Shown here: one piece after another, positions 8,471-31,460 of the stretch | How the letters are laid out: the number at the start of each line of letters is the position of its first letter | How positions within the stretch are numbered: position 1 is the stretch's first letter | Source of the DNA: an uncultured Bacteroidota bacterium | GTDB taxonomy: Bacteria > Bacteroidota > Bacteroidia > Chitinophagales > Saprospiraceae | DNA length: 40,169 bases | Direction of reading: 5' to 3' | Assembly (NCBI GenBank): GCA_903905445.1 | Contig: CAIVGO010000337.1 | Location: 1 to 40,169 of the forward strand | Translations under genes and position numbers: made by a program | Notes under the pieces: model-generated | The model's database searches: none | What the model was told of the DNA's origin: nothing | What the model saw: only the letters and a program-made list of their open reading frames with translations

Positions 8471-9339
8471 AAAATTTAACTGTTCTCGGGATAATAGCGG
8501 GTATTGTTTTTTTAATTTTTCAATACCCACATAAAATGCTCAGTCCGGGCGAATTAATACAAGGACACCAGGATTTAAACAACAATTGCATCGCTTGCCA
8601 TGCGCCCTTTGGTGGCGTTCCGAATGACAAGTGTATTGCTTGTCATAAGTTGTCTGAAATTGGCGTGAAAAGCGCTAAATCAAGCATCAATACATCTATA
8701 AAAGAAAACGTACTGTTTCACCAAAATCTTGCAACCCAATCTTGTGTTGCGTGTCATACGGACCATAAAGGGACAAATCCTGTACTAATTTCCGGTCAAT
8801 TTAAACATGATTTATTGACTGAAAATACCCGAAATAATTGTCTGAATTGCCACGCCAAACCAACAGATAATTTACATGCACAAATATCTTCGGCATGTAT
8901 CAGTTGTCATAATTTCGAAGGATGGAAATCGGCTACTTTTAATCATGCCATGTTATTGGCCGCTGATAAAAATAATTGTGCTGCATGTCACAAAAAACCA
9001 ACGGATGCCATGCATGCTTCGACCGATGCCAATTGCAACCAATGCCACACAACAACCAAATGGATTCCTTCCACCTTTGATCATGACTCCTATTTTGTTT
9101 TAGACGGCGATCACAATGCAAAGTGTGCCGTTTGCCATAAAAACAATGTCTTTACTACCTATACTTGTTATGGTTGTCATGAACATACCCCCAATAATAT
9201 ATGGGCAGAGCACAATGAAGAGGGCATTTCCGATATAAACAATTGCGTGCGTTGTCATAAAAGCGCCAATGAACATGGTGAAAACGGCGGTGAAGGACGT
9301 GAAGAAGGCCGCGGTAAAGAGGGGGATCGTGATGATTAA
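8467..9339 (+). CDS. Membrane-anchored multiheme cytochrome c, 10 CxxCH
   Basis: Start at ATG 8467 overlaps the upstream TGA (ATGA). N-terminal hydrophobic anchor MKNLTVLGIIAGIVFLIFQYP; ten CxxCH counted. Confidence 0.9.
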   Translation: MKNLTVLGIIAGIVFLIFQYPHKMLSPGELIQGHQDLNNNCIACHAPFGGVPNDKCIACHKLSEIGVKSAKSSINTSIKENVLFHQNLATQSCVACHTDHKGTNPVLISGQFKHDLLTENTRNNCLNCHAKPTDNLHAQISSACISCHNFEGWKSATFNHAMLLAADKNNCAACHKKPTDAMHASTDANCNQCHTTTKWIPSTFDHDSYFVLDGDHNAKCAVCHKNNVFTTYTCYGCHEHTPNNIWAEHNEEGISDINNCVRCHKSANEHGENGGEGREEGRGKEGDRDD

Positions 9340-9412
9340 GATTGTTGTTTTAAATCCAACTCCGATTAGACTGTGATTCAATAGTTCTAATTCCTAATTC
9401 CCTATTTTGCAC

Positions 9413-12400: not shown

Positions 12401-12520
12401 TATGCCGCCGGCGATCCGGTTCCGGTGCCATCTTTTGTTTATTACATTGTATTTTCATTAATCGGCATAAGTATGGTCGCTTATTGGAGATACCGAGCGT
12501 ATATGAAGTTGAGTAAATAG
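9413..12520 (+). CDS. ccsBA: Fused cytochrome c biogenesis protein CcsB/CcsA (ResB-ResC, System II)
   Basis: N-terminal ResB-like domain and C-terminal CcsA with the WWD heme-handling motif WANESWGRYWGWDAKETWALVS. Confidence 0.93.
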   Translation: MKFLKKLNDTLFSTSAAGLYIALFAISIGVATFIENDFGTSAAQKVIFKTHWFEFILVLFGGSLIANIFRFRMVQQKKWAILTFHASMIIILIGAGVTRYFGSEGMMGIREGSASNAFLSAETYILVKVQHAGRKYSFDEPVLFASLGDNHFNKSYLVGNQELNLEVAQFIPNPKETLVEDPNGGPILKVVLGGAGGREEYLVHYGEIVNVQGTIFNFGNPEDPAAFNIKYEQNNLTFKAPTVFAQMVMATQTRDTLAAGVEHPLMLRSLYSNGVESFVFGDFKPNARSEVSSTAPKMTSKSSAALELKVRFGGEEKPLLISGTQGIEGQYGIVDFGPNSAIAVSYGSKSVQLPFSVQLRDFIMERYPGTNSASSYASEVTLVDARKNLKHDQRIYMNHILDYDGYRFFQSSFDQDELGTYLSVNHDAPGTLISYLGYLLLTVGMILTLFSKKSRFQQLAENIKRLRQDGKIAVLLLPVLFFLATPVMGGPPSPGDHLINPAHATRFGKILMQDNNGRLKPMNTFANEVMRKVSRKETYAGQTAEQVLLGMASNPDAWFDVPMIKVGKQEEIKKLLQISTEMAAYNDFFNADGSYKLKDIVQKAYNAAPRDRGVFEKEVVKIDERVNICNMIFSGRFMKVFPMPGDTANTWISPAEPGHQHGVTGGIVQQFYPMYIPALQEAVHSNDWSIADQMVSELSQYQQKNGGAILPEPLKVTAELLLNRLNIFNRLSGLYGILGLLFLGLLFGSVFNPNRNFNFPFKIALGLLLFGFTMHTFGLGMRWYISGRAPWSNGYESLIYIGWTTTLAGLLFSRKSMGALAATTVLTATILMVAGLSWLDPEITPLVPVLKSYWLTIHVSLEAGSYGFLVLGAIIGVLNLIFMIFGNAKNGERVYRIIKEMSYISEMTLIGGLFMLSIGTYLGGVWANESWGRYWGWDAKETWALVSILVYSFILHMRFIPGLRGLFAFNVATLFGWASVAMTYFGVNYYLSGLHSYAAGDPVPVPSFVYYIVFSLIGISMVAYWRYRAYMKLSK

Positions 12521-15084: not shown

Positions 15085-18000
15085 TTAGTCTGCCTGCCCA
15101 TTCGGGTGGCAGTTGTAACAAGCGGCACTATTGTATTGATAACCATTTACCCCTGAATGGTGCCCAGCCATCTCGGTTGGGTTATCATGTTCGTGGCAGG
15201 CAATACAGCTGAATGCCGTAAAATTATTGGGCGTGGTATGGCATTCGACGCACTGACTCCACTCATTTTTGTGTTTCCCGCTATAAATTGGGAAATACTG
15301 TTGGTCATGGTTGAAGGTAGAAGGATCCCAAGCTGTAGTGGTGTGGCAGTTTTGGCAGCTTGTTGGGAACCCGGCAGCGGCGTGATTCGGGTTGGTGGCC
15401 GAATTGTATTCCGCGGCATGGCAACCAAAGCAGGTGCTTGGGGTATTGTTATAATTGCCGTTGTGGCAGGCGGCACAATCATTTGCAATTGCAGCGTGTG
15501 CGCCCGTCAATGCCCAATAATTGTTGTGTATCGGAAAGGTAGCAGGCTGCCAATCGGGCACGGTGGTATGACACATTGCACAATCGGTCGGTAGATTGAG
15601 GGTCGTGTGGTTGGGATTTGTCGTGGTATTGTAATTGGCCTGGTGGCACCCATTGCAGGTGTTCGGCGTATTTGTATAGTTACCATTGTGGCAAATATTA
15701 CAATTGTCCGCAATAGCAAGGTGGGCACCGGTAAATGGATAGACGGCGCTGTGATTGAATGTAGACGGCACCCAGGACGACTCCGCATGGCAGACCGTAC
15801 AATCGGTTGGGAACTGTTGGGTCTGGTGATTCGGGTTGGTCGTTTGGTTATAATCAGGGAGGTGGCAACCAACACAAGTAGTTGGCGTATTATTGTAATT
15901 GCCGTTGTGGCAGGAGGCGCAGTTGTTGGCAATGGTAGCGTGCGCGCCATTAAGGGGCCAAAATGAATTATGAATCGGGAATGTGGCGGGTTGCCAGTCG
16001 GCGGAAGTGGTATGACACATCGCACAATCGGTTGGCAAGTTCAGGACCGTATGTTTAGGGTTCAGACTCGCGTTGTAGTCTGGCAAATGGCAAGCATTGC
16101 AGGTATTAGGGGTATTATTGTAATTGCCTTGGTGGCAGGCATTACAATCGTTGGCTATCGGAATATGCGCTCCGGTAAACGGATAAACGGTATTGTGGTT
16201 AAACGTAGAGGGTACCCAGGCCGTTTCGCTGTGGCATTGCGTACAATTGACGGGAAATTGCTGGGTAACGTGATTGGGCGCAGCAGTCTGCACATAATCA
16301 TCATTATGGCATCCATTACAAGTATTTGGCGTGTTATTATAATTCCCGTTGTGACACACCGCGCAATCATTTGCAATGGTAGCGTGGGCCCCATTCAGTG
16401 CATAAAAGGTATTGTGAATCGGAAATGTGGCAGGCGACCAGCCGGGTGCCGTGGTATGGCATTGGGCACAATCGGTTGGTAAATTGAGCGTCGTATGGCT
16501 CGGGTTGCTTGCACTGGAATAGTCGGCATTGTGACAACCATTGCAGGTGTTCGGTGTATTCGAATAATTGCCGTTGTGGCAGGCATTACAATCGTTTGCG
16601 ATGGCAATGTGTGCGCCCGTGAAGGAATAAACGGCATTGTGGTCAAAGGTAGAAGGCGCCCAGGCCGTTTCACTATGACACGTTGTGCAATCGGTGGGGA
16701 ATTGCTGGGTTACGTGGTTTGGATTAGTGGTTTGGGTGTACTCCGGATTGTGGCAGCCGTTGCAGGTATTGGGTGTATTGTTGTAATTGCCATTGTGACA
16801 AGTTGCACAGTTGTTGGCAATCGCGGCATGTGCGCCATTCAAGGCATAGAACGTATTATGAATCGGGAAACTTGCGGGTTCCCAGCCGGGCGCGGTGGTG
16901 TGGCACATGGCGCAATCCGTGGGGAGATTGAGTTGTGCGTGGTTGGGATTGGCCGCCTGGGTATAATTTGCGTTATGACAACCGTTGCAGGTGTTTGGCG
17001 TATTGTTGAAGTTACCGTGGTGGCAGGCATTACAATCGTTGGCGATCGCGATATGCGCACCGGTAAATGGATAAACTGTACTATGATCGAAGGTAGAAGG
17101 CGTCCATGCTGTTTCTGTATGGCACATTGCACAATCGGTCGGGAATTGGGATGCGGCGTGGTTTGGATTGGTGGTTTGGGTATATTCAGGATTATGACAA
17201 CCGTTGCAGGTATTGGGCGTATTGTTGTAATTGCCGTTGTGGCAGGTAGCGCAATCCGCTGCAATGGCCGCATGTGCGCCGTTTAAGGCATAGAACGTAT
17301 TATGAATCGGGAAACTTGCGGGTTCCCAGCCTGGCGCGGTGGTATGGCACATGGCGCAATCCGTCGGCAGATTGAGTTGCGCGTGGTTCGGGTTGCTTGC
17401 CTGGGTATAATCTGTGTTATGACAACCGTTGCAGGTATTGGGGGTATTGTTGAAGTTGCCGTGGTGACAGGCATTACAATCACTTGCAATGGCAACGTGC
17501 GCCCCGGTAAACGGATAAACCGTGTTATGATCGAAAGTAGAAGGCATCCAGGCCGTTTCCGTATGGCACAATGCGCAATCGGTGGGGAATTGGGACGCGG
17601 CATGGTTTGGATTGCTGGTTTGGGTGTATTCGGTATTGTGGCAGCCGTTGCAGGTATTGGGCGTATTGTTGTAATTGCCGTTGTGACAGGTAGCGCAATC
17701 GGTTGCGATCGCAGCATGCGCGCCGTTTAAGGCATAGTATGTATTGTGGATCGGGAAGGTAGCGGGTTCCCAGCCTGGCGCGGTGGTATGGCACATAGCG
17801 CAATCCGTGGGGAAATTCAGCGCCTGGTGTTTAGGATTGGTTGTTTGAACAAAATCCGAATTATGACATCCATTGCAGGTATTCGGCGTGCCGTTATAGA
17901 GCCCGTGGTGGCAGGCATTACAATCATTGGCAATGGCCGCATGCGCCCCGGTAAACGGATAAATGACGTTGTGGTCAAAAGTAGAAGGTGCCCAGGCGGT

Positions 18001-21000
18001 TTGGGTATGACAAAGTTTGCATTCAACCGGGAATTGCGCGGAAAAGTGGTTGGGACTGGTGGTTGAATTATACTCCGTGTTATGGCACCCATTGCAAGTA
18101 TTGGGCGTGTTGTTATAATTGCCGTTGTGGCAAGTTGCACAATCATTTGCAATGGCAGCATGTGCCCCTTCCAGCGTATAATAATTGTTGTGAATCGGGA
18201 AAGCCGCAGGCTCCCACCCAGGTGCAGTGGTATGACAAGTAGCACAATCGGTCGGAATATTGAGGGCCGGGTGGTTCGGGTTGGTCGATTGGGTATAATC
18301 CGTATTATGGCAGCCGTTGCAGGTATTGGGCGTATTGGTATAGTTTCCGTGGTGACAACCTGCACAGTCGTTGGCAATGGCAGCGTGTGCGCCGGTAAGC
18401 GGGTAAATGGTGTTGTGGTCGAAGGCAGCAGGTGCCCAGGCAGTTTCTACATGGCAACTGGCACAATTTGTCGGGAATTGGGATGCCGCGTGGTTCGGAT
18501 TGGTGGTTTGGTTGTAATCGGCGTTGTGGCAACCGTTACAGGTATTGGGCGTGCTGTTATAGTTCCCGTTGTGGCAGGTCGCACAATCTGTTGCGATGGC
18601 AGCATGTGCGCCATTCAACGCAAAGTAGTTGTTATGGATCGGGAAGGTAGCGGGTGCCCATCCAGGTGCTGTGGTATGGCAGGTGGCACAATCGGTCGGA
18701 ATACCAAGCGTAGCATGGTTGGGATTGCTTGCTTGCGCATAGTCGGCATTATGGCAACCATTGCAAGTATTGGGGGTATTGGTGTAATTCCCGTGGTGGC
18801 AGGCATTACAATCATTCGCAACACTGGCATGCGCACCCGTAAGCGGGTAAAAATTATTATGATCGAACGTGGAAGGCGCCCAGGCCGTTTCACTGTGACA
18901 CGATGCACAATCGGTTGGGAATTGCGCCGTTACGTGGTTCGGATTGGTGGTTTGCGCATAATTGTCGGCATGGCAGCCATTGCAGGTATTGGGCGTGTTG
19001 GTGTAGTTTCCGTTGTGGCAGGCATTGCAATCATTGGCAATGCTGGCATGTGCGCCGTTTAAGGCATATACACTGTTGTGGTTGGGAAAACTTGCGGGTG
19101 CCCATCCCGTAGTGGGCGTATGGCAGGTAGCACAATCGGTTGACAAATTGAGTGACAGGTGGTTCGGATTGGTTGCCTGGCTGAATTCGGTACTGTGGCA
19201 GGCCGAACACTGCGTGGGTGTTCCTGCAAATCCTGTTGCATGGCACTCGATACAATTGGTCGTTTGATGCACCCCCATTAAACCAAAGGCCGTGCTATTA
19301 TGGTCAAATACAACGCCTGCACTACCCGTAGGATGGCAGGCAAGGCACATGTTATTGCTGTAAGAATACCCGTTTACACCATTGTGCTGGTTGTTGGTTT
19401 CCGGGTTGGTATGGCAATTTATACAGGAATATTCTGCATAATTGGACGGATTGGTATGACAATCCACACATTGCGACCATTCCCCTTTGTGTTTTCCACT
19501 ATAAATCGGGAAATACTGCGCATCATGGTCGAAGGTGGACGGCACCCAGGTCGATTGTGTATGGCAAGATGCACAATCGGTTGGGAAATTGGCCGAGGCA
19601 TGGTTTGGATTGTTCGTTTGGTTATAATCCGTAGTGTGGCAAGCGATACAGGTGCTGGGCGTGTTGTTGTAATCCCCGTTGTGGCAAGTGGCACAATCGT
19701 TGGCAATCGCAGCGTGCGCGCCTTGCAGCGTGTAATAGTTATTGTGGATCGGGAAACTTGCCGGTGCCCAACCGGGCGCTGTGGTATGGCACATGGCGCA
19801 ATCGGTCGGAATATTCAGGGTTGTGTGTTTCGGGTTGGTTGTCTGGTTAAAATCGGTAGTGTGGCAGCCCGCGCAGGTATTGGGGGTATTGTTGTAATTG
19901 CCGTGGTGACAGGCATCACAATCATTCGCAATGGCTGCATGCGCACCCGTCAGCGGATACACCGAATTGTGGTCAAACATGGATGGCACCCAGGCCGTTT
20001 CGGAGTGACAAGTTGCGCAATTGGTCGGGAATTGCCCTGCTACGTGGTTGGGATTGGTGGTAGCATTAAAATCGGCAGTATGGCAACCATTGCACGTGTT
20101 GGGCGTATTGGTATAATTACCTTGATGGCAAGCCGCACAATCATTGGCGATTGCCGCGTGGGCCCCGTTCAATGGATGAAAGGTATTGTGGTTGGGAAAA
20201 TTGGCGGGTTCCCATCCAGGCGCCGTGGTATGGCAACTGGCACAATCGGTTGAGAGGTTCAGCGCAACGTGGTTGGGGTTGCTTGCCTGGCTGAAATCGG
20301 TGGTATGACAAGCCGCACACTGGGTAGGTGTACCCGCGTACCCTGCCGCATGGCATTCAATACAATTGGCCTGTACGTGGGCTCCCGTCAAAGGAAAATT
20401 CGTGTTGGCATGATCGAACACATTGTCCGCATCGCCCGTTGGATGGCAGGCGAGACAAGCCGTATTTTCATATACATACCCGTTTACGCTGGTGTGCGCG
20501 TCGTTGGTTTCCGGGTTGATATGGCAACTGGTACAGGTATATTCGGCGTAATTTGATGCATTGGTATGGCAATCCGTACACTGGGTCCATTGCCCTTTGT
20601 GTTTCCCGCTGTAAATCGGGAAATAAGTGGCATCGTGCATCGTAAACGCGGCCGGCATCCAGTCCGGATTGGTGGTATGGCATTGCGCGCAATCATTCGG
20701 AAAATGGGCTGTCTGGTGGTTCGGAGCTTGTGCCGTGTTGTAATCCTGCTGGTGGCAAGCCGTACAGGAAGTTGGGGTGGCAGAATAATTTCCCCCCGTA
20801 TGGCATTTATTACAATCGCTTACTTCATGCCCCAGGGTTAAGGGGAAAAAGTCGTGTTTTACCTTATTTGTTTTCCAATCGGGTGTAAATACATCATGGC
20901 ATTCAATACAATCCGTTGAAAAACCCGCGTGTTTGTGGTCGGGGCTGGTTGACGCATTGAAATCCTTGATATGGCAGCTGATACAATCATTCCCGATCCG

Positions 21001-21507
21001 GGTAAATTGTAAGGTAGAAGCAGCTGTATGGCATTGTTCACAACTTACAGCCGTGTGTACCCCTGTGAGTGGAAAACCATTTGACAGATGGAGTTCCGGG
21101 ATATTGTCGACCAGCCAGTTGGCGGGTGTATGGCAGCGCGCGCAATCGGTTCCAACCGTTTGCTGGTGCATATCCTGGTGGCAGGAAATACAATCCGACT
21201 TGGCTTCCGAAAAAACAAGGGTACTGTGACATTGCCGGCAATCAACGGCAGCATGTTGTCCTTTTAACGGAAATTGTGTTTTTGCATGGTAAAAACGAAT
21301 CGAATCTCTTCCGATCGGCATGCCCGTCGTTTTCGAAACATTGGCTTTGTCCGGATTAAACGTTTGCCAGTAATCCGCATCAATTTCCCACCCCTTCGGA
21401 TTATGGCACGACGCGCAATTGATCTTCAGATCAGCGCCATGCGGATTCTGGGCATACGCGGATGCCGCAAAAACAAGGGTGAAAATTATTGATGACAAAC
21501 TACGCAT
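15085..21507 (-). CDS. Giant multiheme cytochrome c, 2140 aa, ~85 CxxCH motifs
   Basis: Signal peptide MRSLSSIIFTLVFAASAYAQ; manual count of 85 CxxCH; tandem 73/75-aa units each with three CxxCH. Confidence 0.95.
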   Translation of the reverse strand: MRSLSSIIFTLVFAASAYAQNPHGADLKINCASCHNPKGWEIDADYWQTFNPDKANVSKTTGMPIGRDSIRFYHAKTQFPLKGQHAAVDCRQCHSTLVFSEAKSDCISCHQDMHQQTVGTDCARCHTPANWLVDNIPELHLSNGFPLTGVHTAVSCEQCHTAASTLQFTRIGNDCISCHIKDFNASTSPDHKHAGFSTDCIECHDVFTPDWKTNKVKHDFFPLTLGHEVSDCNKCHTGGNYSATPTSCTACHQQDYNTAQAPNHQTAHFPNDCAQCHTTNPDWMPAAFTMHDATYFPIYSGKHKGQWTQCTDCHTNASNYAEYTCTSCHINPETNDAHTSVNGYVYENTACLACHPTGDADNVFDHANTNFPLTGAHVQANCIECHAAGYAGTPTQCAACHTTDFSQASNPNHVALNLSTDCASCHTTAPGWEPANFPNHNTFHPLNGAHAAIANDCAACHQGNYTNTPNTCNGCHTADFNATTNPNHVAGQFPTNCATCHSETAWVPSMFDHNSVYPLTGAHAAIANDCDACHHGNYNNTPNTCAGCHTTDFNQTTNPKHTTLNIPTDCAMCHTTAPGWAPASFPIHNNYYTLQGAHAAIANDCATCHNGDYNNTPSTCIACHTTDYNQTNNPNHASANFPTDCASCHTQSTWVPSTFDHDAQYFPIYSGKHKGEWSQCVDCHTNPSNYAEYSCINCHTNPETNNQHNGVNGYSYSNNMCLACHPTGSAGVVFDHNSTAFGLMGVHQTTNCIECHATGFAGTPTQCSACHSTEFSQATNPNHLSLNLSTDCATCHTPTTGWAPASFPNHNSVYALNGAHASIANDCNACHNGNYTNTPNTCNGCHADNYAQTTNPNHVTAQFPTDCASCHSETAWAPSTFDHNNFYPLTGAHASVANDCNACHHGNYTNTPNTCNGCHNADYAQASNPNHATLGIPTDCATCHTTAPGWAPATFPIHNNYFALNGAHAAIATDCATCHNGNYNSTPNTCNGCHNADYNQTTNPNHAASQFPTNCASCHVETAWAPAAFDHNTIYPLTGAHAAIANDCAGCHHGNYTNTPNTCNGCHNTDYTQSTNPNHPALNIPTDCATCHTTAPGWEPAAFPIHNNYYTLEGAHAAIANDCATCHNGNYNNTPNTCNGCHNTEYNSTTSPNHFSAQFPVECKLCHTQTAWAPSTFDHNVIYPFTGAHAAIANDCNACHHGLYNGTPNTCNGCHNSDFVQTTNPKHQALNFPTDCAMCHTTAPGWEPATFPIHNTYYALNGAHAAIATDCATCHNGNYNNTPNTCNGCHNTEYTQTSNPNHAASQFPTDCALCHTETAWMPSTFDHNTVYPFTGAHVAIASDCNACHHGNFNNTPNTCNGCHNTDYTQASNPNHAQLNLPTDCAMCHTTAPGWEPASFPIHNTFYALNGAHAAIAADCATCHNGNYNNTPNTCNGCHNPEYTQTTNPNHAASQFPTDCAMCHTETAWTPSTFDHSTVYPFTGAHIAIANDCNACHHGNFNNTPNTCNGCHNANYTQAANPNHAQLNLPTDCAMCHTTAPGWEPASFPIHNTFYALNGAHAAIANNCATCHNGNYNNTPNTCNGCHNPEYTQTTNPNHVTQQFPTDCTTCHSETAWAPSTFDHNAVYSFTGAHIAIANDCNACHNGNYSNTPNTCNGCHNADYSSASNPSHTTLNLPTDCAQCHTTAPGWSPATFPIHNTFYALNGAHATIANDCAVCHNGNYNNTPNTCNGCHNDDYVQTAAPNHVTQQFPVNCTQCHSETAWVPSTFNHNTVYPFTGAHIPIANDCNACHQGNYNNTPNTCNACHLPDYNASLNPKHTVLNLPTDCAMCHTTSADWQPATFPIHNSFWPLNGAHATIANNCASCHNGNYNNTPTTCVGCHLPDYNQTTNPNHQTQQFPTDCTVCHAESSWVPSTFNHSAVYPFTGAHLAIADNCNICHNGNYTNTPNTCNGCHQANYNTTTNPNHTTLNLPTDCAMCHTTVPDWQPATFPIHNNYWALTGAHAAIANDCAACHNGNYNNTPSTCFGCHAAEYNSATNPNHAAAGFPTSCQNCHTTTAWDPSTFNHDQQYFPIYSGKHKNEWSQCVECHTTPNNFTAFSCIACHEHDNPTEMAGHHSGVNGYQYNSAACYNCHPNGQAD
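15300..20240 (-). repeat. Intragenic tandem repeat, 444-bp (148-aa, 6-CxxCH) period
   Basis: The same landmark (AATCGG.. upstream of the GCGC/GTGC-GGTGTGGCAC tract) recurs at 16417, 16861, 17305 and 17749: exact 444-bp spacing. Interrupted by the YSGKHK module near 19100-19500. Confidence 0.93.
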
Positions 21508-23303
21508 TCGTAAGATTTGAATTTATATTGAACAAACGTGATTTCTTTTTCAATTACGGATTTATGACAACCGGCACAATCGACCGTGGCATGTTTCCCT
21601 TCCAGTTTAAAATTGGTTTTATCGTGGTTGAACTTTGCGATATCCCAACTTTCATTTCCATGGCAACGCGCACAATTGGTGGCGCCTTTTACCTCAAATT
21701 GCCGATTGTGTACCTCTTCGTGGCAGTGGCTGCAAGTGGCCGGCAAACCCGCAAACTGCCCGTGGGGGTACGTTGCGTCCGGTTTGTGGCATGCGCGACA
21801 ATCTTGTTTTTCATGCGCTCCTTTGAGCACAAAGGCGGTTTTTTTATGGTCAAAACGGCTCTCTCGCCAACTTGAAGTCACATGACACTGCGCACACGCT
21901 TTGTTTGGATACCATTTCTCTGCAATTTGCCCGTTGTGAATGTCTTTATGACAATCGACGCACCCTACCCCCAATCCCACAAACTTCCACTTTGCCTCTA
22001 ATTTGTGGCACGCAAAACAAGGTGTCGCAATGTGTGCCCCATCCAGCGGAAATTTCGTTTTTGCATGTTGCTCCATGCTGAAATTGCTCTCTGAAAACCC
22101 CGATTCCGTATGACAAGCAGCACAATCCGGTACGATCAAATGGGTACTAAACTGTCCTTCATGATAATCCGTATGACAGGTAGCACAAGTGTTGTGTGGC
22201 ACCGGATCGGTCATGGATTCCGTTTTATGGCACTTTTTGCAATCGACGGATTCGTGTTTTCCTTTCAGTACAAAAGAGGTTCGGTTGTGGTCAAATTTGT
22301 CCAGGTTTCCAACTTTTCGAAAACCCTCTTCCGTGTGACATTCTGCGCAATTCGTTCCAAATTTCCCTTCATGCACATCTTTATGACAGGTATTGCAACT
22401 TTCCGTTTTTATACCCAGCCGATCTTGAAAAATAGCAATGGGTAAAACATTCATTTGATGGCATTCCCGACATTCTACTTTTTTATGTTTCCCCTTCAGC
22501 GGAAATTTCGTTTTGCTGTGGTTAAACTTGCTTAAGCCCGTTAAAACACTAAACGACACCTCCGTATGACACTCCTTGCAATTGGCTCCGAGTTTGTCCT
22601 TGTGCGGATCTTCATGGCAACTGTTGCAATTTTTGAAAGGCACATCGGCAAAGCGCTGAAAAGACAATCCATTTTTGGTTTCCTTTTTATGGCATTCCAG
22701 GCATTGCACCAATTTGTGTTTACCCTCCAGCGGAAAATCGGATCGATCGTGGTTAAACTTGCTCGCCGGAGTAAACTTTTCGGTCGTGTGGCATTTCGCG
22801 CAATCATTGCCGAGGGTTTTCTGGTGATAATCGGTATGACAGGCCAAACACTGCTGCCGTAAGCCTAAAAACGTGTCCTTCCTTTTTTTCAACTCCTGAT
22901 CGGCGATGTATCCGGTCTGGTGGCATTTGCGACAATCAATTTGCTTATGCGCCCCCGTGAGTTCGTACGAAGCCAAACTGTGGTTGAACTTTTTCTCGTC
23001 AAAGCGCACCATGTCAAAATTGCGGCCATGGTGGTCACTGTGGCATCGAAAACAATCCTTTCCGCGCACTTCCTGCGAGGCATGGTATCCTTCCTGCTTG
23101 TCAATCAGCGTTTTTATTTCCTTGTGGCACTGCAAACACTTGTCATTCAGCACCTTATTCCCAATTTCGTGGCATTGTGTGCAGTTGGTCATGCCTTCCA
23201 GTTCCTTGTGCGCATTGGACAATGCTCCGGGCGACAACTGCGCTTCCAACCTTCCGGCTAAAAACGCGAACAGCACAACAATGTAAATACGATGGGTTTT
23301 CAA
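21486..23303 (-). CDS. Periplasmic multiheme cytochrome c, 605 aa, 23 CxxCH
   Basis: Signal peptide MKTHRIYIVVLFAFLAGRLEAQ; 23 CxxCH counted; repeated KGKHxxVxCxxCH...CxxCHxDxHxGxFGxxCxxCH units. Overlaps the giant cytochrome start by 22 nt. Confidence 0.95.
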   Translation of the reverse strand: MKTHRIYIVVLFAFLAGRLEAQLSPGALSNAHKELEGMTNCTQCHEIGNKVLNDKCLQCHKEIKTLIDKQEGYHASQEVRGKDCFRCHSDHHGRNFDMVRFDEKKFNHSLASYELTGAHKQIDCRKCHQTGYIADQELKKRKDTFLGLRQQCLACHTDYHQKTLGNDCAKCHTTEKFTPASKFNHDRSDFPLEGKHKLVQCLECHKKETKNGLSFQRFADVPFKNCNSCHEDPHKDKLGANCKECHTEVSFSVLTGLSKFNHSKTKFPLKGKHKKVECRECHQMNVLPIAIFQDRLGIKTESCNTCHKDVHEGKFGTNCAECHTEEGFRKVGNLDKFDHNRTSFVLKGKHESVDCKKCHKTESMTDPVPHNTCATCHTDYHEGQFSTHLIVPDCAACHTESGFSESNFSMEQHAKTKFPLDGAHIATPCFACHKLEAKWKFVGLGVGCVDCHKDIHNGQIAEKWYPNKACAQCHVTSSWRESRFDHKKTAFVLKGAHEKQDCRACHKPDATYPHGQFAGLPATCSHCHEEVHNRQFEVKGATNCARCHGNESWDIAKFNHDKTNFKLEGKHATVDCAGCHKSVIEKEITFVQYKFKSYECVVCHQ

Positions 23304-23321: not shown

Positions 23322-24650
23322 CTATTTGTGTTTTTTGACGGTGTATCCAAATCGCTTGGTAATCAGGACACCCGCTTTTTCCAAAAATTGTGTGGGCAAC
23401 TCGCCCCCAGCAAAAATGAGCACCAAGTCGTTTTCCATCGGATGCGGCTCCGGGTTTGCTTCCGTGGTAATCATCACCTGATCTTCTTCAATTTTTTTCA
23501 GATTACTTTTCAGCAGTACTTCCAACTTTTGTTGTTGAATCGCCGCATCCAACTTTTCCCGATTTTTCGGTTTTAACCGACTAAAAGCCTCACTTCGATA
23601 ACTCAGCGTCACCTTGTTTTGATCAATCAAAGAAAGTGCGGCTTCTATGGCCGAATCACCTCCTCCCACTACCATCACGCGCTTTCCCACCACCAACTCC
23701 GGCTCCAGGATTTTATAAGCCACTTTTTCAAGCGTTTCACCTGGAATACCTAATTTCCGGGGGCTTCCTCGTCTGCCAATCGCCAGCAACACATTTTTGG
23801 TTTTAAAACTTTCCCCTTTTAAGGTAATGACTTCAAAGCCATCCGGTTGCATCTCGATTTTCTCCACCTTGGTATGTTCCTGAATCACAATATTGTTCTT
23901 TTGCAATACCGGCAACCACAGGCCCAACAATTCGGTTTTACTGGTATCAAACAGTTTCACTTTTCCGTGCAAAGGCAAATTCATCGGAGCCGTCATCACA
24001 ATTTTAGAACGCGGGAAGTTGAAAACCGTCCCCCCTAAGGAATCCTGCTCCAAAGTCAGGAAGTTCAGATTGTGCTTTTTGGCCGTCAAAGAGGCTGAAA
24101 TGCCTGCCGGTCCGGCCCCCACAATGATGAGATCATACATCGCGGCATCTCTTTTGAAGCCCGATTTGACCATACTTTCTACCGCCGCTTCCCCTTGTTC
24201 CACACTGTTTTTAATCAGTCCCATGCCGCCCAATTCTCCCGCGATGTAGATGCCGGGTACATTGGTTTCAAAATTTTGGTTCACGTGCGGCAAATCCACC
24301 CCCCGTTTTTCCGTGCCAATCACCAGCGAAATCGCCTCCACCGGACAAGCGTGAAAACAAGCGCCATGCCCAATGCACTGCGACGCGTTAATCAAAGTAG
24401 CCCGCCCATTCACAATCCCGATAATATCTTTCTCCGGACAAGCCTCAATACAAGCACCACTTTTGATGCAGGAATATGGATCAATCACCGGATGCAGCGA
24501 AACAGGTTCAAACGTTCCATCCAGCTTTGCCTTTTCAATTTTCACCTCCGACAACTGCGAGGTCTTATGCTGCTTTCTTAAATACAGGTAAATGACCAAC
24601 CCGCAAAAAAGAAAAACGACCCCGTAAATGATGATTTCTTCCAGTAACAT
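23322..24650 (-). CDS. Membrane-anchored ferredoxin-domain / FAD-NAD(P)-binding oxidoreductase
   Basis: N-terminal TM helix; CIKSGACIEACP and CIGHGACFHACP; dinucleotide-binding GAGPAGISA and GGGDSAIEAA; thioredoxin-reductase-like fold. Confidence 0.88.
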   Translation of the reverse strand: MLLEEIIIYGVVFLFCGLVIYLYLRKQHKTSQLSEVKIEKAKLDGTFEPVSLHPVIDPYSCIKSGACIEACPEKDIIGIVNGRATLINASQCIGHGACFHACPVEAISLVIGTEKRGVDLPHVNQNFETNVPGIYIAGELGGMGLIKNSVEQGEAAVESMVKSGFKRDAAMYDLIIVGAGPAGISASLTAKKHNLNFLTLEQDSLGGTVFNFPRSKIVMTAPMNLPLHGKVKLFDTSKTELLGLWLPVLQKNNIVIQEHTKVEKIEMQPDGFEVITLKGESFKTKNVLLAIGRRGSPRKLGIPGETLEKVAYKILEPELVVGKRVMVVGGGDSAIEAALSLIDQNKVTLSYRSEAFSRLKPKNREKLDAAIQQQKLEVLLKSNLKKIEEDQVMITTEANPEPHPMENDLVLIFAGGELPTQFLEKAGVLITKRFGYTVKKHK

Positions 24651-24659
24651 ATCCAGTCC

Positions 24660-25520
24660 TTAAAAAATCCAATGATAACCCATGGCCATCGTGATGGCTA
24701 CATGAATGACCATAATCACCAGCATCACCAGCGCAAAGGGTAAATGCGCGACGTGCCAGTACTTAAAAAGTTGTTGCATCAGTTGCAACCTGCTGATGCG
24801 ATGATTCAGCGTAATTTCGTGTTTAACCAACTTCGTAACATGCTGAATATCAGGACGAGAAAGTTGGTTTTGCCAAAGTACCTGCCGTACGGTGCCGATT
24901 GTTTTTTTGTCTTGAAAATACTGGCCGAGCCAGGAACCCGCGTTGTTTGCCTGGGTTTGTACCGTTACCGATTGAAGAATGGTCTGACGACTGTTTTCAT
25001 CCAACCGGTACGTGTTTTGTAAAACATCCTCCAAATTTCCTTTCATCGCCTGCACCTCCTGAAGACTAAGTGCACGCCCTTCAATCGAACGCGGTATTTG
25101 AATATAAATGAAACGGCCAATGACGCCACTTGCGACTACTGCAATCATACTCCAGAAACTAATAGAAACCAGTCCCCCAAACTTGAAAGCAGTGTGAAAA
25201 AGAATCATGACAGGGCCAAGGGAGCAAAGAAAAATATGGAACTCCAGCCAGTATTTCAAGCGGCCCAAACGGGCCAATGCGCGGTATTTCTTTTTGGCTT
25301 GATAACCAAACACACCAATCAAAATGAGTAAGGTGCCGATAATACCCAACCCATGTCCATAAATACCACTCGGCTTGAACTGCTCGTGGTCGGGATGATA
25401 GAACCTTTCTTCGATCGGCATGCTGTAATACGACCACCCTTTTATAAAAAGGAAAGCCGCCGTTAGCACAACAATCGTTGTTAGGGTCGCAATATATATG
25501 CGATGCACCAAAGGAGACAT
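24660..25520 (-). CDS. Cytochrome-b-like integral membrane protein
   Basis: LEFHIFLCSLGPVMILFHTAFKFG and YWHVAHLPFALVMLVIMVIHVAITMAMGYHW; start MSPLVHRIYIATL at 25520. Confidence 0.72.
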   Translation of the reverse strand: MSPLVHRIYIATLTTIVVLTAAFLFIKGWSYYSMPIEERFYHPDHEQFKPSGIYGHGLGIIGTLLILIGVFGYQAKKKYRALARLGRLKYWLEFHIFLCSLGPVMILFHTAFKFGGLVSISFWSMIAVVASGVIGRFIYIQIPRSIEGRALSLQEVQAMKGNLEDVLQNTYRLDENSRQTILQSVTVQTQANNAGSWLGQYFQDKKTIGTVRQVLWQNQLSRPDIQHVTKLVKHEITLNHRISRLQLMQQLFKYWHVAHLPFALVMLVIMVIHVAITMAMGYHWIF

Positions 25521-25591
25521 AATTCGATTACTACTTTTAAAGGTTAATCGGCAAGGAGGATGAAGGATGTCGCAATGTACATGTGGGGAAA

Positions 25592-25616
25592 ATGACTTTT
25601 CCATGATAAAAGTCAT
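25592..25616. promoter_or_regulatory. Perfect 9-bp inverted repeat upstream of the - strand cytochrome operon, candidate operator
   Basis: ATGACTTTT-N7-AAAAGTCAT, 72 bp upstream of the predicted start at 25520. Confidence 0.4.
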
Positions 25617-25895: not shown

Positions 25896-26085
25896 AAAAT
25901 GAATATCGGGAAAATGAATATCGGGAAAATGAATATCGAACACCGAATATCGAACACCGAACACCGAAGTTAGGCGTTGCGTTAATCGACACCGCGAAAA
26001 TCTCAAAGTAGCGCGCCACTTCGAAATTCGGTGTTCGGTGTTCGATATTCTGTGTTTATTTTCCCGGTGTCCGATATTCGGTGTT
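25896..26085. repeat. Short tandem/inverted AACACCGAATATCG-type intergenic repeat cluster
   Basis: AAAATGAATATCGGG x2, AACACCGAATATCGAACACCGAACACCGAA, then inverted ..CACTTCGAAATTCGGTGTTCGGTGTTCGATATTC. Confidence 0.85.
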
Positions 26086-26126
26086 ATTTTTGAACCTTGC
26101 CACCCGCATTCAAACACCACCAATCC

Positions 26127-27026
26127 ATGAAATTACTTCCGGCCATCATGTTCTTGTCCTTTTTATCCACAGCCGCCGCCCAACAAACCCGTCCGCTCTA
26201 CCCCGATACCATTCCCAATGAAATTCCCGGCCCCGACAAGGAAACCACCGAAATAAAACCCGACGGCATTTTGGTCATCCATCAGATCAGCAAACCGACC
26301 ATTGCCGTTTATTTACCATCCAAACGCAAAGCCACAGGCACCGCCGTGATCATTTTCCCCGGCGGTGGATATTCTGTAAATGCCTACCAGCACGAAGGCA
26401 TTGATGTAGCCAAACAGTTGGTAAAAATGGGGGTGGCTGCTTTTGTCGTGAAATACCGGGTTCCCAACCCCGCCACCATGCCCAATCCCACCATCGGGCC
26501 TTTGCAGGATGCCCAACAAGCCATCAAAATGGTACGTGAAAACGCCAGCGCTTGGGGCATCCATCCCAGTAGGGTAGGGGTGCTGGGCTTTTCCGCGGGC
26601 GGACATTTAGCGGCCTCCGCTGGCACGCATTTTCAGGAGGTCCTGATTCCCAACGCGGAAAATACCTCCGTCCGGCCCGATTTCATGGTGCTCATCTATC
26701 CTGTCATCAGTTTTATGCCCGGCGTGGGACATACAGGATCTGCCGACCGATTGATTGGCAAAAATCCGACGGAAGCGCAGCAAAAAGCCTGGTCGAATGA
26801 ACTGCGGGTAAACGCCCAAACACCGCCCACTTTTTTGGTGCATGCCACTGATGATGGCGGCGTTAGTCCACTCAACAGCATCCTGTTTTATGAGGCGCTG
26901 CGCAAAAACAAGGTCGCCACCGAAATGCATTTGTACCAGCGCGGCGGACACGGGTTTGGGTTGTATATAAAAGGTAGCAAGGTGCGTTGGATGGATGCGT
27001 TTCGGGAATGGATGGGGGAAAAATGA
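26127..27026 (+). CDS. Secreted alpha/beta hydrolase (acetyl-xylan esterase/BD-FAE-like)
   Basis: Signal peptide MKLLPAIMFLSFLSTAAAQ; FPGGGY oxyanion region; GFSAGGH nucleophile elbow; HATDDG and RGGHGFG catalytic Asp/His regions. Confidence 0.88.
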   Translation: MKLLPAIMFLSFLSTAAAQQTRPLYPDTIPNEIPGPDKETTEIKPDGILVIHQISKPTIAVYLPSKRKATGTAVIIFPGGGYSVNAYQHEGIDVAKQLVKMGVAAFVVKYRVPNPATMPNPTIGPLQDAQQAIKMVRENASAWGIHPSRVGVLGFSAGGHLAASAGTHFQEVLIPNAENTSVRPDFMVLIYPVISFMPGVGHTGSADRLIGKNPTEAQQKAWSNELRVNAQTPPTFLVHATDDGGVSPLNSILFYEALRKNKVATEMHLYQRGGHGFGLYIKGSKVRWMDAFREWMGEK

Positions 27027-27092
27027 ACACCGAATATCGAATACCGAACACCGAATTTCGAAGTGGGGCGTTGCGTTTAACTGAATACCGAA
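27022..27092 (+). repeat. AACACCGAATATCG-type repeat at the esterase stop codon
   Basis: TGAACACCGAATATCGAATACCGAACACCGAATTTCGAAGTGGGGCGTTGCG; matches the inverse complement of the right half of 25896-26085. Confidence 0.8.
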
Positions 27093-27158
27093 AATCCACT
27101 TCAAGTATCTCATGCTTGATCGAAAGTTTAGATAAGGTCTCAGTTTTCTTGGAAATAA

Positions 27159-27209: not shown

Positions 27210-27974
27210 TTATGAATTAAGATTTGTAATCTTTATAAACTTTTCTGAACTAGTCATAGATATGCCGCAGCGTTTTGGTGCAGTGGTGTCGTACGTGTTG
27301 CCACAAGTTGAACAAACATAGTAAACCAAGGGCAAAGATTTTACAGTATTGTTTTGTAGGGCTGCAAGTGCTTTTTCGTAAAGTGGCTTATGCTTTTGTT
27401 CAGTTTTGTAAGCATAATTTAAACTCACCAACGAAAGTTGGTTTCCTGCTGTGTTTGCATTTGTCAAAAACGCAGGGTACATGGTGCTGATTTCGTAACC
27501 CTCTCCGGCAATAGCGTCTTTTAGATTTTCTGCTGTTGTTTTAACAGAAAATTCAGGCGTAATTACCGGTGTTTTTTGTCCTGCATCTTCTATTACTGCT
27601 TTGTGATTGTTCGCATGAATGTTTTCTGATTTTGATGCAGTAAGAAACAGCAAAGCAATTTCATGGTGCCCTTCTGCTTCAGCTTTTTTACTGTAAGCTG
27701 CATACTTGGCACTTGCTGTAGTTTCCCCTTTAAAAGCCTCTTGCATGTTTTGCATGTTTATGGTATTGGCATCTGTAGCAATTTTTGCAGCAGTAGTTTT
27801 AACTTCTGATTCCATTTCAGAATCTTCCTTTTCAATTGAAGCAAGTTCAGTCTTTGCCGTCATTGATTCTGTGGTCGGATTTTGCATCCCAGCATTTGCT
27901 TTTGAATTACTGGTGCAGGATTGCAGCATGGCTACAGAAACGATTGCTGCGATTGCGATTGCGATTTTTTTCAT
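27210..27974 (-). CDS. Lipoprotein rubrerythrin-like protein with degenerate rubredoxin-like C-terminus
   Basis: MKKIAIAIAAIVSVAMLQSC lipobox; AFKGETTASAKYAAYSKKAEAEGHHEIALLFLTASKSENIHANNH diiron-type helix; YYVCSTCGNTYDTTAPKRCGISM. Confidence 0.85.
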   Translation of the reverse strand: MKKIAIAIAAIVSVAMLQSCTSNSKANAGMQNPTTESMTAKTELASIEKEDSEMESEVKTTAAKIATDANTINMQNMQEAFKGETTASAKYAAYSKKAEAEGHHEIALLFLTASKSENIHANNHKAVIEDAGQKTPVITPEFSVKTTAENLKDAIAGEGYEISTMYPAFLTNANTAGNQLSLVSLNYAYKTEQKHKPLYEKALAALQNNTVKSLPLVYYVCSTCGNTYDTTAPKRCGISMTSSEKFIKITNLNS

Positions 27975-28010: not shown

Positions 28011-28070
28011 CAAAGGTGCAGGGGTGGGTATTCAAACAACCTTTTGGAATTCTTAAAATCTGCTTAAGAA
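28011..28070 (-). promoter_or_regulatory. Promoter/operator of the rubrerythrin gene
   Basis: - strand TTCTTAAGCAGATTTTAAGAA (28050-28070), 31-nt gap, CACCTTTG (28011-28018), similar to the Bacteroidota -7 box TAnnTTTG. Confidence 0.65.
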
Positions 28071-28080
28071 AATTATACCT

Positions 28081-28172
28081 GGATTTAAATGGATTTGGAG
28101 GATGGATGGATAAAAAAATGATTTTCAATGGATTAGATGCCATCTGTCTTTCATAACTACTTTGCGTTGAAT
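28081..28172 (+). repeat. Dispersed ~92-bp intergenic repeat, copy 2
   Basis: GGATTTAAATGGATTTGGAGGATGGATGGATAAAAAAATGATTTTCAATGGATTAGA...CTTTCATAACTACTTTGCGTTGA. Confidence 0.88.
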
Positions 28173-29536
28173 TTAAGCGTAAAGCTGCTACCTTGATGTA
28201 GCGTACTTTCAACGGTAAGGCTAATTTTTTGCAGTTCGCACAATTTTTTCACAATGGAAAGTCCAAGTCCATTGCCTTTGATAATTGAACTGCGCGATTC
28301 ATCAGCGCGATAAAAGCGATTGAAAATATTTGAAAGGTCATTGGCAGAAATACCAATGCCATCATCTTTTACAGAAAGTGTTCTCAAGGAATCATTCCAC
28401 AGCAAAAAAACATTTCCGTTTTCCTTTCCATACTTTATTGAATTGCTCATCAGGTTATCAAGTATTAATTCAATAAAAAGTTTATCGGCAACGATTGCAA
28501 TATCCTTTGCAATGTTTAAATGAAGTGCTATTTTTTTTTCACTTGCGGCTTCCTCCCATTTTGTTTGAAATGAATCAACGATTGGAAACAAGAGCAGGGT
28601 TTCTTTTTTTGCAACAGCAACTCCAGATTCTATGTGTGCAAGTTGAAGTAATTGTTCAAGTAATTTGTTGAGCCGGTCAACTTGCTGAATGATGTCGGTT
28701 ATTTTTTCTTCATAAAATTTTGGTTCGCGTTGTTTGCGAATCAAAACTTCTAATGTTCCTCTAATGGCTGTCAGGGGCGTTCTTATTTCATGCGATGCAT
28801 CGCTGGTAAATTGTTTTTGCTGAAGCATACTTATTTCAATGCGTGCAAGCAATTCATTGATTGTATTGGTAAGTTCAAACAACTCATCTTTCCTTTCCGG
28901 TAAAACCAGTCGCGTTTCAATATTAGCATCGCTGATGCCTGCTGCGATTTTTATAAGTCGATGAACAGGTTGAATAGCCTTGGATGCTGCAATAGAAGAA
29001 GCGATAAATTGAACAATAAGTACGATTGGAAAAGAGATAAGCAAAACCCAAAGCAAATTATTCAGCATACTATATGATTCTTGCTGTGAAATGGCAATAG
29101 ATAAATAACCAATAATTTTTTCATTTTCATTCTTAATCGGGAATTGGCCTAACCTTATTTTTTGCTCACCAATTTCACTGTTGTAAAATATTTCCTGTTC
29201 AATATTTGGATTAAAAAGGAATTGATCTTTTAATAAATTGGAAGAATGAAAAACTACTTTTCCTGTTATATCTACGATCTGTAAAAATGTTGGATTCACT
29301 TCTACCTTATTATGTTCAGCTTCGTCCCACTCTGGCATTTTGTTGATGATGATGGAATCTCGATGCCAGTCAAGATTATTGAATACTTCTTCCTTTTCCA
29401 ACAAAATATCATTGTCCAAATGTGTAAATGATGTTTTGTTCACCACAAAATAAATTACTACAAACACCATTGCCGTTGTTGCGGCAACGGCAATGGTGTT
29501 AAATGTAGCTATTCTGGTTTTAAACCTCAATTTCAT
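28157..29536 (-). CDS. Sensor histidine kinase (HAMP, HisKA, HATPase)
   Basis: SDASHEIRTPLTAIRGTLEVL H-box; N box LILDNLMSNSIKYG; G boxes VKDDGIGIS and GNGLGLSIVK; two TM helices. Confidence 0.95.
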   Translation of the reverse strand: MKLRFKTRIATFNTIAVAATTAMVFVVIYFVVNKTSFTHLDNDILLEKEEVFNNLDWHRDSIIINKMPEWDEAEHNKVEVNPTFLQIVDITGKVVFHSSNLLKDQFLFNPNIEQEIFYNSEIGEQKIRLGQFPIKNENEKIIGYLSIAISQQESYSMLNNLLWVLLISFPIVLIVQFIASSIAASKAIQPVHRLIKIAAGISDANIETRLVLPERKDELFELTNTINELLARIEISMLQQKQFTSDASHEIRTPLTAIRGTLEVLIRKQREPKFYEEKITDIIQQVDRLNKLLEQLLQLAHIESGVAVAKKETLLLFPIVDSFQTKWEEAASEKKIALHLNIAKDIAIVADKLFIELILDNLMSNSIKYGKENGNVFLLWNDSLRTLSVKDDGIGISANDLSNIFNRFYRADESRSSIIKGNGLGLSIVKKLCELQKISLTVESTLHQGSSFTLKFNAK

Positions 29537-30210
29537 ACTTCTGTTTCAATTTTATAACCTACACCCCTTACCGTAATAATTAAGGAGGGCATACCGGGTT
29601 CGTCTAATTTTTTTCGCAGAGCATTGATGTAAACATCTATCACTGAATTGTTGTACTCAAAATGGATGTCCCAAACTTTTTCAATAATGCGTGTGCGCCG
29701 GCAGACTTTTCCTTTGTTGCGCAAAAAATATTCAAGCAAGGCAAATTCCTTTTGAGTGAGTTCCACCGTTTTCCCATTTTTGGTAACAGTGTGTTTTTCA
29801 ATGTTCAGTTCAATTTTTCCTGCCCTGAAGACAATTACTTCATTTTCCTTTGTGCGAAGCAATACACGAATGCGGGCTAATAATTCTTCAAATGAAAATG
29901 GTTTACGTATGAAATCATTGGCTCCGGTTTCCAGACCGAAAACAGCATCATCGACGGTGTCTTTTGCAGTCAGAAAAATAATGGGAACAGTTTTGTTTTC
30001 CAGACGGATGCTTCGGCAAATTTCAATTCCATTCAAGCCGGGTAGCATCCAGTCTAATAAAATCAAATCATATTCTTCTATTCCATCTAATGCAAGCTGC
30101 AATCCTTTTTTTCCATTGTCAGCAACATCTACGGCAAAACCTTCTTCTTCCAATCCTTCACGCAGGAATTTGGCAATGGATGTTTCGTCTTCTACAATTA
30201 GTAATCTCAT
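29533..30210 (-). CDS. OmpR-family response regulator
   Basis: MRLLIVEDETSIAKFLREGLEEEG...LILLDWMLPGLNG...IFLTAKD...KPF; winged-helix C-terminus VIDVYINALRKKLDEPG..LIITVRGVGYKI. Overlaps the kinase start as ATGA. Confidence 0.96.
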   Translation of the reverse strand: MRLLIVEDETSIAKFLREGLEEEGFAVDVADNGKKGLQLALDGIEEYDLILLDWMLPGLNGIEICRSIRLENKTVPIIFLTAKDTVDDAVFGLETGANDFIRKPFSFEELLARIRVLLRTKENEVIVFRAGKIELNIEKHTVTKNGKTVELTQKEFALLEYFLRNKGKVCRRTRIIEKVWDIHFEYNNSVIDVYINALRKKLDEPGMPSLIITVRGVGYKIETEV

Positions 30211-30250
30211 GGTACACGCACTAAGTTGTTTCTTCAAAGGTAATGATTTA

Positions 30251-30342
30251 TAGCCAACGCTAAGTGGTTATGAAAACGACTGGATTCTAATCCATTGAAA
30301 ATCGAATTTTTATCCATCCATCCTCCAAATCCACCTAAATCT
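30251..30342 (-). repeat. Dispersed ~92-bp intergenic repeat, copy 3 (inverted relative to copy 2)
   Basis: Reverse complement AGATTTAGGTGGATTTGGAGGATGGATGGATAAAAATTCGATTTTCAATGGATTAGAATCC...TTTTCATAACCACTTAGCGTTGGCTA. Confidence 0.88.
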
Positions 30343-30351
30343 TGGTTTAAA

Positions 30352-30822
30352 CTACTCTTCCTCCGTTGGACTATTAAAATCGGGGAGCGCCAGTTCAACG
30401 CCTGCGCCGTGCGCATAAACCAATTGACCGCCAAGGTAGCCTGTGTATGAAACAGAGCCGATTAATGTCGTAAACAAGAGGATGCCAGCCCACTTAGTCC
30501 ATATTTTATGGTAATTAAAAAAGTAAATCACCATCCTGAAGACGGCCGTGATAATGGATAACCACAGCGTAAACAATGCAGCATCTTCATGCAATTCCAT
30601 CGGTACTTTCAGCGGACCATCTTCAATGCCTTCACCGGCATAACTTCCGCTGAGGTAGGCCGCAATGGCTCCTAATGCGCCAAGCAGCAAAAGGTAAAAA
30701 GCGGCACTTTTAAAAAATTCCTTCTTGCTAAACAGTGCAATTACTTCCGATAAAAAACCCGCCATGAGCAGTGCAATCGGGAAGTGAATCATCATGGCAT
30801 GTAGGTGCGTTGCTGAAATCAT
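30352..30822 (-). CDS. DUF2231-like integral membrane protein
   Basis: ATHLHAMMIHFPIALLMAGFLSEV...YAHGAGVELALPDF, characteristic of DUF2231; four TM helices. Confidence 0.82.
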   Translation of the reverse strand: MISATHLHAMMIHFPIALLMAGFLSEVIALFSKKEFFKSAAFYLLLLGALGAIAAYLSGSYAGEGIEDGPLKVPMELHEDAALFTLWLSIITAVFRMVIYFFNYHKIWTKWAGILLFTTLIGSVSYTGYLGGQLVYAHGAGVELALPDFNSPTEEE

Positions 30823-30850: not shown

Positions 30851-30910
30851 CAAAGGTGGCCTGTTGAATATTTGAGAAACCTAATGATATTCTTAAAATT
30901 GGCTTAAGAA
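30851..30910 (-). promoter_or_regulatory. Promoter/operator of the DUF2231 gene
   Basis: - strand TTCTTAAGCCAATTTTAAGAA (30890-30910), 31-nt gap, CACCTTTG (30851-30858); same layout as 28011-28070. Confidence 0.65.
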
Positions 30911-30955: not shown

Positions 30956-31072
30956 TGCTGGGCTTTTCCGCGGGCGGACATTTAGCCACCTCCGCAGGTA
31001 CACACTTTCAGGAAGTCCTGATTCCCAACGCGGAAAACACCTCCGTTCGGCCCGATTTTATGGTGTTCACCT
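30956..31072 (+). pseudogene. Fragment of an esterase paralogue
   Basis: LLGFSAGGHLATSAGTHFQEVLIPNAENTSVRPDFMVF versus VLGFSAGGHLAASAGTHFQEVLIPNAENTSVRPDFMVL in 26127-27026; similarity stops abruptly on both sides. Confidence 0.85.
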
Positions 31073-31460
31073 TTGCTCCCTTCCTCGCTTGCATTAAATT
31101 TGGAAAAAAACAGATGCGCAAAAAATAAAATCACCTTGTTAGGTTTCAAATTCCCGAATCCGTAGGTGTTTTATCGTATCTTTTAAAAGCGATTTAATGA
31201 TTTGGCGTAGTTTTTGCATTTTTATTTTTCGCTATAACGCAAATTATTACCGATCACTTTTTGTCCCCCCGACAGGCAACGCACAGCGTTGTGATCCAAC
31301 AAACACTTAATCATTTTAATTTTCTGAACATCCGTGTGCGTGATCGCACTGGATAGGTCTACTTTATTTCCATGCCTCCTTGCGTTTTGTACGTTTTGCA
31401 ACGCTTGTCAGGCTAATCCGATTTCATTACAAAACATCATCATAATAATAAATACGCGTC

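Follow-up and report, generated by a model that had tools for sequence, protein, structure and literature searches.

A putative envelope rubrerythrin of Bacteroidota with a conserved serine in its knuckle, encoded beside DUF2231 and a two-component system

Rubrerythrins are regarded as enzymes of the cytosol, found for the most part in anaerobes. The closest described relatives of the protein discussed here are nigerythrin (1YUX/1YUZ) and the two-domain rubrerythrins (1B71 from D. vulgaris and 1NNQ from P. furiosus), in which a ferritin-like diiron domain is followed by a C-terminal short-spaced knuckle; in both nigerythrin and classical rubrerythrin the knuckle has four cysteines, and both are assigned to the cytosol. 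A second group, the aerobic-type rubrerythrins such as sulerythrin (1J30) and ferriperoxin, comes from aerobic or facultative hosts, has the diiron domain with altered electron input and lacks any knuckle (PMC5114695, PMC3317640). The 2016 survey that recognized classical, reverse, classical-B, aerobic and cyanobacterial types mentions neither signal peptides nor the periplasm, export or lipoproteins in its text (PMC5114695), and a phrase search found no exported or lipoprotein rubrerythrin, although this is weak evidence as it covered open-licence literature only, in which just one paper was found to name DUF2231, the domain of the partner protein described below. Finally, replacement of a metal-binding cysteine by serine is familiar from the Cys42Ser rubredoxin of Clostridium pasteurianum, a laboratory mutant (Xiao et al. 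1998, as cited in PMC10130062).

Here, we describe a rubrerythrin gene from a 40,169-nucleotide contig of an uncultured Saprospiraceae bacterium (CAIVGO010000337.1; the window), whose features are collected in Table 1. Its product shares the two-domain plan of nigerythrin and classical rubrerythrin, but differs from them in having an export signal, a linker of about 50 residues and serine in place of the fourth cysteine, and in that its gene shares an operon with DUF2231 and two-component genes. It resembles the aerobic types in its diiron domain, its aerobic or facultative hosts and its presumably altered electron input, yet keeps a conserved set of three cysteines and a serine where they have no knuckle.

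The function that we favour from sequence and model, and to which we give somewhat better than an even chance, is that of an envelope peroxide reductase under two-component control and supplied by a membrane electron donor. The exported and lipidated rubrerythrin would probably hang in the periplasm by its flexible linker, where the diiron site would reduce hydrogen peroxide, the presumed substrate, to water. DUF2231, with its conserved histidines facing the periplasm, would pass electrons from the membrane, whether from the quinol pool or from cytochromes, to the rubrerythrin, which they may enter through the knuckle or directly, while the kinase and regulator, whose genes lie between those for DUF2231 and the rubrerythrin, would activate both promoters through TTAAG-N6-TTAAG boxes. 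The host genome gives about ten matches of CCP/MauG type, which makes further periplasmic peroxidases likely, and the rubrerythrin is probably not the only one in the envelope.

Table 1. Features of the rubrerythrin locus and its surroundings in the window
Feature	Position	Strand	Basis
Multihaem cytochrome c, 23 CXXCH; possible accessory	21486..23303	-	Related 8-10-haem cytochromes in relatives
4Fe-4S / FAD pyridine-nucleotide oxidoreductase; possible cytoplasmic electron input	23322..24650	-	Profile matches
Membrane protein, distant relative of small cytochrome b-like protein; possible accessory	24660..25616	-	Profile match, E 6e-14
Putative exported lipoprotein rubrerythrin (P0001), 254 aa	27210..27974	-	ORF, PF02915, AlphaFold2 model
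Knuckle, C221-x2-C224 ... C236-G-I-S239-M240, Ser at fourth-Cys position	27255..27314	-	Alignment to 1nnq; 71/81 relatives
Predicted signal peptide and lipobox, residues 1-20 (MKKIAIAIAAIVSVAMLQS then C20)	27915..27974	-	Sequence, pattern, hydropathy
CACCTTTG, -7-like element of rubrerythrin, 33 nt after box	28011..28018	-	Sequence; fixed family spacing
Direct-repeat box TTAAGCAGATTTTAAG upstream of rubrerythrin	28052..28067	-	Family box analysis
Sensor histidine kinase	28157..29536	-	PF00512, PF02518; kinase in 62/83 loci
OmpR-type response regulator, probable box binder	29533..30210	-	PF00072, PF00486
DUF2231 four-helix membrane protein, His 6/8/13/78/138; proposed electron donor	30352..30822	-	PF09990, conservation, model, fusions
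CACCTTTG, -7-like element of DUF2231, 33 nt after box	30851..30858	-	Sequence; spacing same as rubrerythrin promoter
Direct-repeat box TTAAGCCAATTTTAAG upstream of DUF2231	30892..30907	-	Family box analysis

The rubrerythrin gene is an intact open reading frame with exact ends, running from ATG to stop, and its product matches the Pfam Rubrerythrin family PF02915 at 69.8 bits, where the cut-off is 22.8 (E 4e-19). The protein starts with MKKIAIAIAAIVSVAMLQSC, a signal of lipoprotein type in which a short basic start is followed by a hydrophobic stretch and then by LQS and C20, the lipobox and cysteine expected of a bacterial lipoprotein. The export suggested in the preliminary description thus agrees with the sequence of the window protein and of nearly all its relatives, which are predicted to carry signal peptides of either the lipoprotein or the plain kind. 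Such a signal argues against a cytosolic location, which is customary for rubrerythrins rather than definitional. Surface-exposed lipoproteins of Bacteroidota have K-(D/E)2 or Q-A-(D/E)2 just past the lipidated cysteine (PMC5080379); neither signal follows Cys20, where the sequence reads C-T-S-N-S-K-A-N. By pattern, a lipobox cysteine is found in 51 of 85 sequences, a count that leaves out a few whose residue at -2 or -3 is Pro or Glu. The exported rubrerythrins of Ignavibacteria have plain signal peptides, and in several close relatives of the window protein (L035, L036, L038, L040, L043, L044 and L054) LQSC is replaced by LQSF or FQSF, such that the lipidated cysteine seems to have been lost and the signal peptide retained.

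Alignment with known rubrerythrins, which had been put forward as a check, places all seven diiron ligands (E84, E117, H120, E158, E161, E192 and H195) and so excludes the possibility that they are missing. The order E, E-x2-H, E-x2-E, E-x2-H, together with the PF02915 match and the fold, identifies the protein as a member of the rubrerythrin family, and across 81 exported relatives the ligands are invariant in the alignment bar one cell, as are two conserved tyrosines throughout. The AlphaFold2 model is a confident two-domain fold (pLDDT about 98 for residues 71-250) whose nearest solved structure is nigerythrin, with an rmsd of 1.7 A over 179 columns; against the NCBIfam nigerythrin model NF045783 the protein scores 89 bits where 340 are needed. 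Residues 1-54 have no order in the model and one long helix begins at residue 55, of which residues 55-71 extend helix A. The linker, first taken to be some 80 residues long, is therefore shorter, at about 50 residues between Cys20 and approximately residue 71.

The C-terminal knuckle does have three cysteines, as originally read, but the residue at the fourth position is not the methionine assigned there. The C-P-V-C-G of P. furiosus rubrerythrin aligns against C-G-I-S-M, so the absent cysteine corresponds to Ser239; Met240 is the next residue and follows the cysteine in those relatives that read CGICM, which rules it out as the replacement. Position 239 is Ser in 71, Cys in nine and Thr in one of the 81 exported sequences of the tree, C221, C224 and C236 being kept in all but one. 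All four TCN codons (TCA, TCT, TCG and TCC) are used for the serine in the family, and silent change has thus continued while the residue stayed. What had been called an incomplete rubredoxin site is accordingly a conserved feature of the clade and not decay. It scores 13.7 bits against the rubredoxin-like knuckle model PF21349, under the cut-off of 26.5, and the four-cysteine site of the classical two-domain form is absent; as rubrerythrins free of rubredoxin exist, three cysteines and a serine bar the protein from the classical form and not from the family. The substitution falls at the same ligand position as in the Cys42Ser rubredoxin cited above, and the knuckle is a natural counterpart to such chemist-built mutants: where that example was made in a cytosolic protein, this is a conserved natural state known from sequence. 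One exported relative (L094:4250-4909) has a further decayed knuckle, with the second cysteine changed to Phe and the serine to Thr; it has no DUF2231 nearby, and cytochrome b-like and multihaem genes lie directly downstream.

The knuckle may hold iron with three cysteines and one serine, or zinc, or nothing. The last two possibilities lead to the best-surviving alternative, in which the protein is the same envelope peroxidase, with a knuckle that is empty or holds structural zinc and plays no part in redox chemistry, while electrons pass straight to the diiron site from DUF2231 or another donor. Neither aerobic-type rubrerythrins nor ferriperoxin need a rubredoxin domain to work (PMC5114695, PMC3317640), and L094 has dispensed with both its second cysteine and its serine; however, the very strong conservation of C221, C224, C236 and S239 and the confidently predicted fold sit poorly with an idle site, since unused cysteines in an oxidizing compartment would be expected to drift. 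We regard this arrangement as credible though unlikely.

Relatives were gathered from 297 genomes of the phylum and from a scan of 84,980 species, with one genome each, and the close ones all belong to Bacteroidota, Ignavibacteriota or Calditrichota where records name them. If the predicted signals are borne out, a rubrerythrin is placed in the envelope of many aerobic or facultative Bacteroidota, including Flavobacterium, Chryseobacterium, Labilibaculum and others. In the tree, a fully supported branch parts the exported clade from cytosolic outgroups, and the sequences with four cysteines, five next to the root of the exported clade and four others, imply four changes of state. The genome of the window has three rubrerythrin matches, one being a fragment at a contig end and another a second full copy (L002) with an export signal, serine in the knuckle and a DUF2231 gene directly after it. 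Spread on plasmids was considered and rejected, as plasmids gave no DUF2231 match and only remote rubrerythrins.

The co-occurrence with DUF2231 that the preliminary description had suggested testing proved to be close. A same-strand DUF2231 gene adjoins the exported rubrerythrin in 70 of the 73 loci with at least 3.5 kb of upstream sequence, versus none of 20 loci of cytosolic rubrerythrins from the same phylum, with flanks of up to 6 kb; overall, DUF2231 is present in 76 of 83 distinct exported-rubrerythrin loci. The commonest order, that of the window included, is DUF2231, response regulator, kinase and rubrerythrin, often with a second DUF2231 gene following. In the four-cysteine members nearest the root, DUF2231 immediately precedes the rubrerythrin and two-component genes are absent, from which the pairing with DUF2231 looks older than either the serine or the regulator. 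Gene order, common promoter boxes and the fusion of DUF2231 to redox domains elsewhere together give strong support to DUF2231 as the partner. VIT1 iron-transporter genes adjoin 18 of the 83 loci (for example L042:6300-7406 and L084:7328-8026), one VIT1 protein having an N-terminal rubrerythrin-like domain.

The partner matches PF09990 (DUF2231) with 73 bits against a gathering cut-off of 26.4 and is modelled as four long helices (mean pLDDT 89.7). His 8, 13 and 78 are invariant, His 6 is nearly so and His 138 reaches 90% conservation among proteins of the upstream type; helix order in the model would place all five near one face. In other Bacteroidota the C-terminus of DUF2231 is fused to a Rieske domain (L121, L122) or to planctomycete-type cytochrome c (PSCyt1) domains (L148-L151), and PF09990 is likewise coupled to a redox protein in the window, with the difference that its partner is a separate exported diiron protein of the same operon. 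Cytochromes c are matured outside the cytoplasm, so these fusions suggest that the histidine-bearing face is probably periplasmic. The top fold matches among solved structures are the haem bundles CcmF, CcmC, STEAP, cytochrome bd and cytochrome b561, with probabilities of up to 1.0 and E values above 0.1 (best 0.12) that make them individually insignificant. Together with the invariant histidines they are suggestive of bis-His ligation of haem b, as in membrane cytochromes. DUF2231 may be a small haem-binding membrane bundle, and this widespread domain of unknown function gains a candidate role as a membrane electron donor. A bolder proposal, which we advance tentatively and consider more doubtful than sound, is that the knuckle of a periplasmic rubrerythrin is a selected rubredoxin-type centre of natural origin, Fe(SCys)3(OSer), to which a DUF2231 cytochrome delivers electrons from the membrane, in an undescribed, regulated system of envelope peroxide reduction common to Bacteroidota, Ignavibacteriota and Calditrichota.

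A direct repeat, TTAAG-N6-TTAAG, with a period of 11 bp, precedes both the rubrerythrin and the DUF2231 gene. OmpR-family regulators bind direct repeats of this period, and both genes are probably targets of the operon's response regulator, the candidate binder of the boxes; a likely regulator and DNA site can be named for the exported rubrerythrin. Among the genes of these loci, the box precedes 38 of 80 for rubrerythrin and 48 of 100 for DUF2231, versus six of the 565 others (shuffled upstream sequences gave about 0.1), and in 53 of 86 cases TTTG stands exactly 37 nt past it, which we take to resemble the TTTG of the Bacteroidota -7 element. Presence of the box tracks that of the two-component genes (box in 50 of 62 loci that have them versus 5 of 21 that lack them, p 5e-6, related loci not being independent). 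A large regulon was rejected: the pattern occurs nine times in the window's genome versus ten for the reversed control, and matches in ten relatives have no further gene family in common. A generic scan for promoters and terminators did not exceed its yield from shuffled sequences.

The nearest NCBIfam models for the kinase and regulator are those of the CusRS, CopRS and HprRS systems (TIGR01386, TIGR01387 and NF008567), and it is here that the main functional rival to peroxide reduction arises, namely an exported diiron ferroxidase or metal handler that oxidizes or buffers iron in the periplasm, or copper with the three-cysteine knuckle as its site, under metal-sensing two-component control and with DUF2231 for electron balance. 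The VIT1 neighbours, one with its rubrerythrin-like domain, and the ferritin-like fold would suit such a protein, but all three two-component models are matched below their curated cut-offs (187 versus 293 bits for TIGR01386 and 228 versus 279 for TIGR01387), ligand E161 of the E-x-x-E pair and both tyrosines are retained as in a rubrerythrin, and the constancy of DUF2231, with its cytochrome c and Rieske fusions, points to electron transfer; we judge metal handling to be decidedly improbable. That the gene is a degenerating, functionless copy, its missing cysteine due to drift, chance or sequencing error, is suggested by the missed rubredoxin-like model and is scarcely conceivable given the family-wide serine with its varied codons, the intact ligands, the conserved operon and promoter boxes, and the same serine in the genome's second rubrerythrin.

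For the envelope peroxide reductase that we favour, the nearby cytochromes had been offered as another source of electrons. They do recur, yet as a minority context, in 12 of 83 loci including the window: a cytochrome b-like protein and an 8-10-haem cytochrome c adjoin the rubrerythrin in 11 relatives, and in the window the cytochrome b-like relative, Fe-S flavoprotein and 23-haem cytochrome lie downstream, past an opposite-strand esterase gene. The 4Fe-4S/FAD oxidoreductase was not seen as a conserved neighbour of the rubrerythrin in relatives. Adjoining the 23-haem protein is a giant multihaem cytochrome c of 2140 residues with 85 CXXCH motifs (15085-21507, minus strand), and further away are a 10-haem cytochrome (8383-9339, plus strand) and a ResB/CcsA-type cytochrome c assembly fusion (9407-12520, plus strand), which with the other two possibly form an extracellular electron transfer cluster.

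The locus also bears several repeats. A 122-bp piece of the esterase gene, the gene downstream of the rubrerythrin, is duplicated (26581-26702 and 30956-31077, 89-90%) just upstream of the DUF2231 promoter, with no further copies elsewhere in the window's genome. On either side of the esterase gene (25913-26091 and 27007-27096) stand arrays of ACCGAATATCGAA-type repeats, some copies direct and others inverted. Finally, an intergenic repeat of about 100 bp flanks the kinase-regulator pair in opposite orientations (28073-28176 and 30248-30350); the 45 matches that it has across the genome of the window mark it as dispersed and REP- or MITE-like.
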